Of a stretch of DNA of 64,000 nt, positions 43,880 to 48,394 are shown piece by piece. The first letter of the stretch is position 1. Each line of letters begins with the position of its first letter. The position numbers and the translations under genes are program-made. The DNA comes from Bergeyella cardium (GTDB lineage: Bacteria; Bacteroidota; Bacteroidia; Flavobacteriales; Weeksellaceae): assembly GCF_003614945.1 (NCBI RefSeq), contig NZ_QYCZ01000001.1, positions 762,001 through 826,000 on the forward strand. Reading direction: 5' to 3'. The notes under the pieces were generated by a model, which made no database searches, was not told where the DNA came from, and saw only the letters and a list, made by a program, of their open reading frames with translations.

Positions 43880-43895
43880 TTTTCTTAATTTTTAG

Positions 43896-43903
43896 CAAAA
43901 GTA
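43896..43903 (-). promoter_or_regulatory. -7 box of the tolC-RND-DUF2892 operon
   Basis: TACTTTTG on the minus strand. No TTG-type -33 element is found at the usual distance, consistent with activator dependence. Confidence 0.65.
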
Positions 43904-43925
43904 TACTGGTGAAATCTCCTGTACA

Positions 43926-43940
43926 GTGATAAATGTTACA
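43926..43940 (-). promoter_or_regulatory. putative Crp/Fnr-type operator
   Basis: TGTAACATTTATCAC on the minus strand, centred about 42 bases before the predicted transcription start. The same motif (14/15 identical, with the same 22-base gap to the -7 box) precedes the rhodanese gene. Confidence 0.6.
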
Positions 43941-47569: not shown

Positions 47570-47643
47570 GGTCCTATAGCTCAGTTGGTTAGAGCACCTG
47601 ACTCATAATCAGGTGGTCCCTGGTTCGAGCCCAGGTGGGACCA
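47570..47643 (+). tRNA. tRNA-Met or tRNA-Ile2 (anticodon CAT)
   Basis: The acceptor is GGTCCTA/TGGGACC with discriminator A, the D stem GCTC/GAGC, the anticodon stem CCTGA/TCAGG with loop CTCATAA, and the T arm CCTGG-TTCGAGC-CCAGG. Position 1:72 is paired G-C, so it is not an initiator. Elongator Met or lysidine-modified Ile cannot be told apart by eye. CCA is not encoded. Confidence 0.95.
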
Positions 47644-47654
47644 CTTTACAATCC

Positions 47655-47717: not shown

Positions 47718-48329
47718 ATGATGAATATTGATGAAATAATAAATTCAGAGTTCAGGAGAGAAATGGAACAAAATGGCGAGATAAAATCATTCCCAGCAGG
47801 TTCTGTTATTCTCAATGTAGATTCGTATGCTCATTATATCCCATTGGTGCTTTCAGGAAGCATAAAGGTAATCCGAACCGAAGAAGATGGTAGAGAAATT
47901 TTACTCTATTATATTACACCTGGCGAGAGCTGTATCGTTTCTATCCTTGCGGGGATGAGGCGGGACAAGTCCAAAGTAAAGGCAGTAATAGAAGAAGATG
48001 CGGAGATTTTAATGCTTTCTCAACAAAAGGCAAAAGAATGGATTAAAAAATATCCAGAATGGACGGATTTCGTTTTTAATTTATATCACAAACGCTTTGA
48101 GGAGCTTTTAGAAGTGGTAAATTCCGTTGCTTTCCAAAAAGCAGATGCCAGGATACTGAGCCTGCTATATCAAAAATCACAACTTTATAAATCAAAAGAA
48201 CTCTCCGTAACGCATCAGCAGCTTGCAGATGAGCTGGGAATCACCCGTGAAGCCGTTAGCCGCGTATTAAAGCAAATGGAAAACGAGAATCAAATCAGTC
48301 TCTCCCGAAATAAAATCACATTATTGTAA
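47718..48329 (+). CDS. Crp/Fnr-family transcription regulator
   Basis: The 203-residue protein has an N-terminal cyclic-nucleotide-binding-fold domain (about 18-125: GSVILNVDSYAHYIPLVLSG, VIRTEEDGREILLYYI, TPGESC) and a C-terminal winged helix with ELGITREAVSRVLKQME (about 175-190). It lacks the clustered cysteines of FNR, so it is not an obvious 4Fe-4S sensor; a Cys in TPGESC and haem or small-ligand sensing remain possible. Its stop overlaps an operator-like motif, and the rhodanese gene follows. It is the likely regulator of that gene and of the RND operon. Confidence 0.88.
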   Translation: MMNIDEIINSEFRREMEQNGEIKSFPAGSVILNVDSYAHYIPLVLSGSIKVIRTEEDGREILLYYITPGESCIVSILAGMRRDKSKVKAVIEEDAEILMLSQQKAKEWIKKYPEWTDFVFNLYHKRFEELLEVVNSVAFQKADARILSLLYQKSQLYKSKELSVTHQQLADELGITREAVSRVLKQMENENQISLSRNKITLL

Positions 48330-48339
48330 CATTCATCAC
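48325..48339 (+). promoter_or_regulatory. putative Crp/Fnr-type operator
   Basis: TGTAACATTCATCAC includes the stop codon of the regulator gene and ends 22 bases before the -7 box of the rhodanese gene. It is 14/15 identical to the motif before the tolC operon, at the same spacing. Confidence 0.6.
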
Positions 48340-48361: not shown

Positions 48362-48369
48362 TAAATTTG
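48362..48369 (+). promoter_or_regulatory. -7 box of the rhodanese gene
   Basis: TAAATTTG, 25 bases before the ATG. No TTG-type -33 element is seen. Confidence 0.6.
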
Positions 48370-48394
48370 CATTATAATTTTTAATTCAGCAATT

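Follow-up and report, generated by a model that had tools for sequence, protein, structure and literature searches.

A Crp/Fnr-type regulator and its candidate reactive-sulfur regulon, with class II promoter geometry, in Bergeyella cardium and other Flavobacteriales

In the 64,000-nucleotide stretch of Bergeyella cardium DNA analyzed here (contig NZ_QYCZ01000001.1, positions 762,001 to 826,000, hereafter the window), two nearly identical operators precede a rhodanese gene and an operon for an RND efflux pump (Table 1), and the Crp/Fnr-family protein encoded directly ahead of the rhodanese gene very probably reads both of them. Sites of the same type in relatives point to a reactive-sulfur regulon in several Flavobacteriales families. 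The explanation that we favor as a whole, with reasonable confidence, is that this Crp protein would activate both promoters in response to a persulfide or polysulfide signal received at Cys72.

TABLE 1 Features of the window discussed in the text; both operators are predicted from sequence
Feature	Positions	Strand	Remarks
DUF2892/YgaP-like transmembrane protein, 66 aa	37845-38045	-	PF11127; final gene in the operon
RND inner-membrane pump, 1073 aa	38125-41346	-	Pfam ACR_tran
RND periplasmic adaptor, 362 aa	41383-42471	-	TIGR01730 RND_mfp, above cut-off
TolC-type outer membrane efflux protein, 435 aa	42572-43879	-	Pfam OEP
-7 box TACTTTTG, tolC promoter	43896-43903	-	22 nt after operator 1
Operator 1, TGTAACATTTATCAC	43926-43940	-	Upstream of tolC
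Crp/Fnr-family regulator	47718-48329	+	Pfam HTH_Crp_2 and cNMP_binding; single Cys72; helix TREAVSRVLKQ
Operator 2, TGTAACATTCATCAC	48325-48339	+	Between crp and the rhodanese gene
crp stop codon TAA	48327-48329	+	Bases 3-5 of operator 2 (TG-TAA-C)
-7 box TAAATTTG, rhodanese promoter	48362-48369	+	22 nt after operator 2
Single-domain rhodanese, 106 aa	48395-48715	+	PF00581

Both 15-mers described in the earlier note were located at the coordinates and on the strands given there, with a single difference between them (14 of 15 bases alike), and the coordinates also confirmed an exact 22-nt gap from the end of each site to the TAnnTTTG box at both promoters. The further claim that the second copy starts in the stop codon of crp held only as to the overlap, for the site begins two bases earlier. 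Since orthologous sites likewise start 2 bases before the stop, the stop codon, whether TAA or TGA, provides bases 3 to 5 of the half-site TG-TRA-Y. The absence of a TTG −33 element was correctly reported for both promoters, but TTG is rare in the background too, at 0 to 4.5% for any one position among 154 background TAnnTTTG candidates; its absence thus says little, and it was dropped as promoter evidence.

Scans of the 1.96-Mb genome itself set these two sites apart. The sequence TGTAACATTNATCAC occurs exactly twice, and allowing up to two mismatches raised the total to 9 matches versus 16 for the reversed control, so that the seven inexact matches are not enriched; each of the seven falls across an open frame of 171 to 611 codons. 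The full pattern, TGTRAYN4RTYAC followed after 20 to 24 nt by TAnnTTTG, gave two exact matches, which are the two operators, and none in the reversed control. When two mismatches were allowed in the spacing-22 pattern, four matches were obtained (the operators and two more) versus eight in the control, and the weak extra sites, being fewer than in the reversed control, were dropped.

The analysis was extended to 148 genomes of the family to which the own genome, Chryseobacterium, Epilithonimonas and Kaistella belong. TolC orthologs were detected in 43 of the 148 (own genome included), and among the 30 loci fetched from these 43 genomes, again with the own genome included, the exact motif plus 22 nt plus TAnnTTTG lies upstream of tolC in all 30, so that the absence of the motif upstream of orthologous operons, which the earlier note had set as a refutation, was not observed. 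Directly after crp, a site and its box stand at the stop codon in the same register in 34 of the 37 distinct orthologs besides the window's, these being 67 to 75% identical to the window protein, while L032, L034 and L035 have no site at the stop codon; among the three exceptions, the site lies 173 nt downstream in G117 and 159 nt downstream in G035, and in G125 the sole site is elsewhere, before a TauE gene. In 22 named loci (≤20.6 kb each) and the window, 57 sites were counted, with copies on the minus strand included, versus 4 in the reversed control. Moreover, with spacings of 20 to 24 nt, the 148 family genomes yielded 273 matches versus 13 reversed controls. Genomes with a close Crp ortholog (E ≤ 1e-85; n = 30, own genome counted) have at least one site in 30 of 30 cases and at least two in 27, and the other 118 family genomes have at least one match in 67 cases and at least two in 35, some of them with divergent Crp homologs that are likewise encoded beside sites. 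Across the whole order, the exact pattern was found in 51 of 196 genomes, with two reversed-control matches overall.

These results bear on the objection that the two sites resemble each other by chance, or through promoter architecture without a common regulator. It is true that 15-mers with up to three mismatches are common in the window (12 observed versus 6.9 expected), but a zero-order model predicts 0.013 copies of the spacing-22 pattern per genome, the full pattern stands only at the two operators genome-wide, and both the retention of the site at every fetched tolC locus and the excess of family matches over reversed controls speak against chance. Given the low expectation and the conservation in relatives, this possibility is refuted and its remaining probability is practically negligible.

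In class II activation by CRP, the site is centered at −41.5. The TAnnTTTG box of Flavobacterium psychrophilum is reported at −12 to −5 (PMC9723704), and because of this position and the 22-nt spacing the operator center comes to −41.5 in the window as well, with transcription predicted to start near 43891 for tolC and, by the same reasoning, near 48374 for the rhodanese gene. The spacing is fixed: wherever a TAnnTTTG box follows a site at 8 to 44 nt in the 22 named loci and the window, the distance is 22 nt (44 of 44 boxes). Judged by sequence and predicted start, the class II placement suggested earlier is upheld, the promoters appear to have a Crp-type class II geometry, and activation by the Crp protein at both of them is quite likely. 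Alternatively, the protein might be a repressor over the −33 region that is released by sulfur species, like CstR, SqrR and BigR; the site does cover the expected place of a −33 element, and CstR and SqrR/BigR are described as repressors in PMC8148161 and PMC9774590. However, a repressor would tolerate varied positions, against the invariant spacing and the −41.5 center seen here, and the lack of TTG at the promoters is a further, weak point on the same side, so that we regard repression as quite improbable.

The earlier suggestion that the Crp protein is the likely regulator is supported by linkage, co-occurrence and helix-operator covariation. With the regulator as the query, only one other Crp-like protein was found in the own genome, and it was ruled out as the regulator of these sites by its 20% identity and its different helix, TPEFLSKM. 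For the covariation, 111 crp-like genes were reduced to 49 distinct regulator-site pairs by removing duplicates, and five distinct C-termini that have a helix but lack a site in the interval from −2 to 2000 nt downstream were left out. Of 37 sites linked to regulators with the R-E-x-x-S-R helix, 36 contain a GTGA half (one such half in 35, two in 1), and all 12 sites linked to R-V-x-x-S-R regulators have GTAA in both halves and no GTGA, counts that are uncorrected for the tree and come from rows that are related by descent and not phylogenetically independent. The exception (G034) is a Glu-helix regulator whose site has no GTGA half, and L250 and L266, which are R-E cases from beyond the family, fit the rule. 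The tolC sites obey it in 29 of 30 genomes: a GTGA half is present in 20 of the 21 genomes with a close ortholog and in 0 of the 9 without, and in all nine of the latter the best-matching Crp homolog shows the Val helix and the pocket Cys. In the exceptional genome, G011, a Val-type Crp is also found on the tolC contig.

With PF00027 and PF13545 both above their gathering scores, the regulator belongs to the Crp/Fnr superfamily. E. coli CRP has a TGTGA-type half-site, a center at −41.5 and an R-E-x-x-(G/S)-R recognition helix, and it contacts cAMP through Gly71-Glu72 and Arg82-Ser83. The window system is alike in half-site, center and helix, and the protein is alike in fold and domains; unlike that of E. 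coli CRP, its promoter box is of the Bacteroidetes TAnnTTTG type. In a HMMER alignment to chain 4bh9 (E. coli CRP), the regulator has Ile73-Val74 in place of Gly71-Glu72 and Lys84 for Arg82, with Ser85 kept, and it scores 60 bits with the NCBIfam CRP model versus a cut-off of 266. Thus, with the cAMP-contact Glu replaced by Val74 and this score, an identity as a cAMP-dependent CRP was rejected. FNR-like oxygen/NO sensors belong to the same superfamily and share the class II geometry, but FNR has N-terminal cysteines for a 4Fe-4S cluster and a TTGAT site, whereas the window protein, with a TGTRAY site, has no N-terminal cysteine cluster and one Cys, at position 72; FNR was therefore rejected as well. 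In addition, no CsoR, ArsR or sigma54-activator domain was found in the regulator among the 11 Pfam families listed. All 38 distinct orthologs, with the window protein counted among them, have Cys72, which forms their only conserved Cys column, and a Cys occupies the equivalent position in all aligned homologs of 31 to 39% identity, most of them encoded beside sites. This residue is predicted to lie in the pocket equivalent to the cAMP-binding one of E. coli CRP, and a structure model of moderate quality (mean pLDDT 73.9, pTM 0.49) agrees with a Crp-type fold and puts Cys72 just before helix 73-81.

The sulfur context had been missed in the earlier note and is an addition made here from the genes that follow the sites. 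The first downstream genes, chosen heuristically and clustered, were collected for 150 non-identical sites from relatives and the window, with contexts identical over 120 nt counted once. They comprise 35 single rhodaneses, 30 TolC proteins, 19 MBL-rhodaneses, 15 TauE exporters, 9 Tll0287-like proteins, 8 flavoproteins resembling sulfide:quinone oxidoreductase (SQR), 4 DUF5777 proteins, 3 YeiH-type transporters, 3 CoA-disulfide reductase (CoADR)-rhodaneses, 3 small unnamed proteins, 2 FixG/CcoG-like and 2 DUF2202 proteins, and the singles include cytochrome bd subunit I, a DsrE-like protein and a ferritin-like protein. Of the 150 first genes, 80 belong to the five clusters concerned with sulfur (rhodanese, MBL-rhodanese, TauE, SQR-like and CoADR-rhodanese). 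Because sites and crp guided the choice of loci, these counts portray the regulon and should not be read as an unbiased survey. For the MBL-rhodanese cluster, the representative sequence matched PDB chains 3tp9 and 3r2u and, more weakly, the persulfide dioxygenase ETHE1, and for the SQR-like cluster it matched sulfide-quinone reductases of solved structure. Among 30 loci fetched order-wide, the first gene is an MBL-rhodanese in 15, TolC in 3, TauE in 1 and Tll0287-like in 1, and the other 10 have no match to the earlier first-gene set. Since the same site in relatives precedes rhodanese, MBL-rhodanese, SQR-like and TauE genes, the sites appear to mark a reactive-sulfur regulon. In the own genome, the regulon consists of the rhodanese, the pump and the DUF2892 protein only; an MBL-rhodanese query returned rhodanese domains and no persulfide dioxygenase match there, and an SQR query, run without a positive control, returned no match.

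In the mechanism that we propose, a sulfur species, most likely a sulfide-derived persulfide or polysulfide, would modify Cys72, the single invariant pocket cysteine of the Crp protein, and the protein dimer would bind the half-palindrome TGTRAY-N4-RTYAC before the rhodanese gene and the pump operon, activating from −41.5 in the class II manner at two promoters that have no recognizable −33 element. Sulfane sulfur or its products would in turn be moved or expelled by the rhodanese, the DUF2892 membrane protein and the pump; the first two resemble the two parts of the YgaP fusion. Binding, an activating rather than a repressing action, the signal, the part played by Cys72 and the pump cargo are inferred, and our assurance differs among these parts: a sulfur species as the signal, at which the invariant pocket Cys alone hints within the regulator, is a somewhat better than even prospect, Cys72 as the sensor stands at about an even chance, and a sulfur species as the pump cargo is doubtful.

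A Crp fold could plausibly sense in this way, judging from the persulfidation of a Crp-like protein in Acinetobacter baumannii and the activation of PrfA by glutathione, both reported in PMC7315123. In that paper, the A. baumannii protein (A1S_1182), which shares 50% identity with E. coli Crp, is highly persulfidated under sulfide, with the functional effect stated to be unknown, and its conserved Cys is described relative to the ligand pocket; the window protein is thus similar as a Crp-family member with a conserved pocket Cys. A point against the proposal is that SqrR forms an intramolecular tetrasulfide (PMC9774590), which the window regulator, with one Cys, cannot do.

The same protein and sites might also serve a different signal, such as NO, oxygen/redox, sulfite, a small-molecule thiol or metal stress, with the sulfur genes forming just one part of what it controls. 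Another signal than sulfide is possible because the regulon in the own genome includes only the rhodanese, the pump and the DUF2892 protein, SQR (by a query without a positive control) and MBL-rhodanese being undetected there. Moreover, sites also precede genes for cytochrome bd subunit I, FixG/CcoG-like, ferritin-like and DUF5777 beta-barrel proteins, and activation by glutathione is itself an example within the Crp family (PrfA; PMC7315123). On the other hand, the five sulfur clusters, with the 30 TolC genes besides, dominate the first-gene set, at loci selected for their sites and crp, and the distant homologs that were aligned, most of them encoded beside sites, retain the pocket Cys; we therefore regard a different signal as improbable and retain a sulfide-derived species as the preferred signal. 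The broader proposition, that Flavobacteriales have Crp/Fnr persulfide sensors with a pocket Cys, activation from −41.5 and a dedicated reactive-sulfur RND exporter, is offered tentatively, at somewhat less than an even chance.

Sulfur-stress regulons as such are already known, and what would be new here is one under a Crp/Fnr activator. According to PMC7315123 and PMC8148161, the targets of CstR, SqrR/BigR and FisR include persulfide dioxygenase, sulfurtransferase, SQR and a TauE-type exporter, target types similar to those found here. Unlike CstR (CsoR-like), SqrR/BigR (ArsR) and FisR (sigma54), however, the window regulator belongs to the Crp/Fnr family and has a single conserved Cys, and unlike the regulons described in those sources, its core regulon contains an RND pump. 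OxyR, PerR, OhrR and MarR family members, reported as sulfane-sulfur sensors, belong to other protein families. Among the literature matches listed, no title names a Crp/Fnr protein as a sulfane-sulfur sensor, and neither such a regulon nor a Crp/Fnr regulator of one was found, a weak absence with the slash spelling uncovered; the matches listed also include no Flavobacteriales counterpart of reactive-sulfur sensing by CstR, SqrR/BigR or FisR. If the reading is true, it would represent a new class of persulfide sensor, with an operator half-site that doubles as the regulator's own stop codon. The regulator, operator, promoter geometry and target list are now open to direct testing, and the helix-operator covariation provides a simple rule for predicting the targets of these Crp paralogs.

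The pump shares 75 to 85% identity, mostly 80 to 85%, with its orthologs in the relatives compared. In the reading proposed here, a well conserved RND pump would be tied to sulfur stress instead of drug efflux. RaeB of Riemerella anatipestifer is similarly an RND pump with an adaptor and an outer membrane factor in Flavobacteriales, but it adjoins a TetR regulator (PMC5727081); the identity of the two pumps was rejected on this neighbor, so that they are set apart by gene context and not by sequence. The gene order crp-rhodanese-tolC-adaptor-RND-DUF2892 was found on one strand in 15 of the 22 named loci, with part of the block in three more (L043, L050 and L052) and neither tolC nor the pump adjoining crp in four (L051, L054, L058 and L059), and this single-strand block is the ancestral order. 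In the window, the block is broken by era, an iron alcohol dehydrogenase, a BadF-like ATPase and tRNA-Met, and the pump operon is inverted relative to crp-rhodanese, with an operator kept on both halves. The tRNA-Met gene (47570-47644) is directly upstream of crp, in the segment that parts crp-rhodanese from the pump operon. At one locus examined (L041:10988-11422), an OsmC-type (SACOL1771-like) protein is encoded between the rhodanese and tolC genes; in the window, no OsmC-type gene is beside either operator.

Several minor observations concern the sites and their variants. Directly after the tolC operator, TGTACA is found at 43920-43925, and TGTRCA occurs at that position in 16 of 27 distinct tolC sites versus 1 of 33 distinct rhodanese sites, so that it may be a second element next to the tolC operator. 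Two genomes, G061 and G073, encode 57%-identical Crp paralogs that have the pocket Cys and an R-A-V-V-S-R helix, with no site in the genome, and their operator may differ. In G059, G102, G110, G119 and G132, a recurrent site TGTGATACTGGTTAC (or GATTAC), with a spacing of 20 to TAACTTTG, is probably the target of a different Crp-type protein. A separate Crp paralog, with the site TGTGACTTTAGTCAC (L184, L152 and L231), likewise has the regulator's stop codon inside the operator, and in L184 a DUF5777 gene is downstream of this site.
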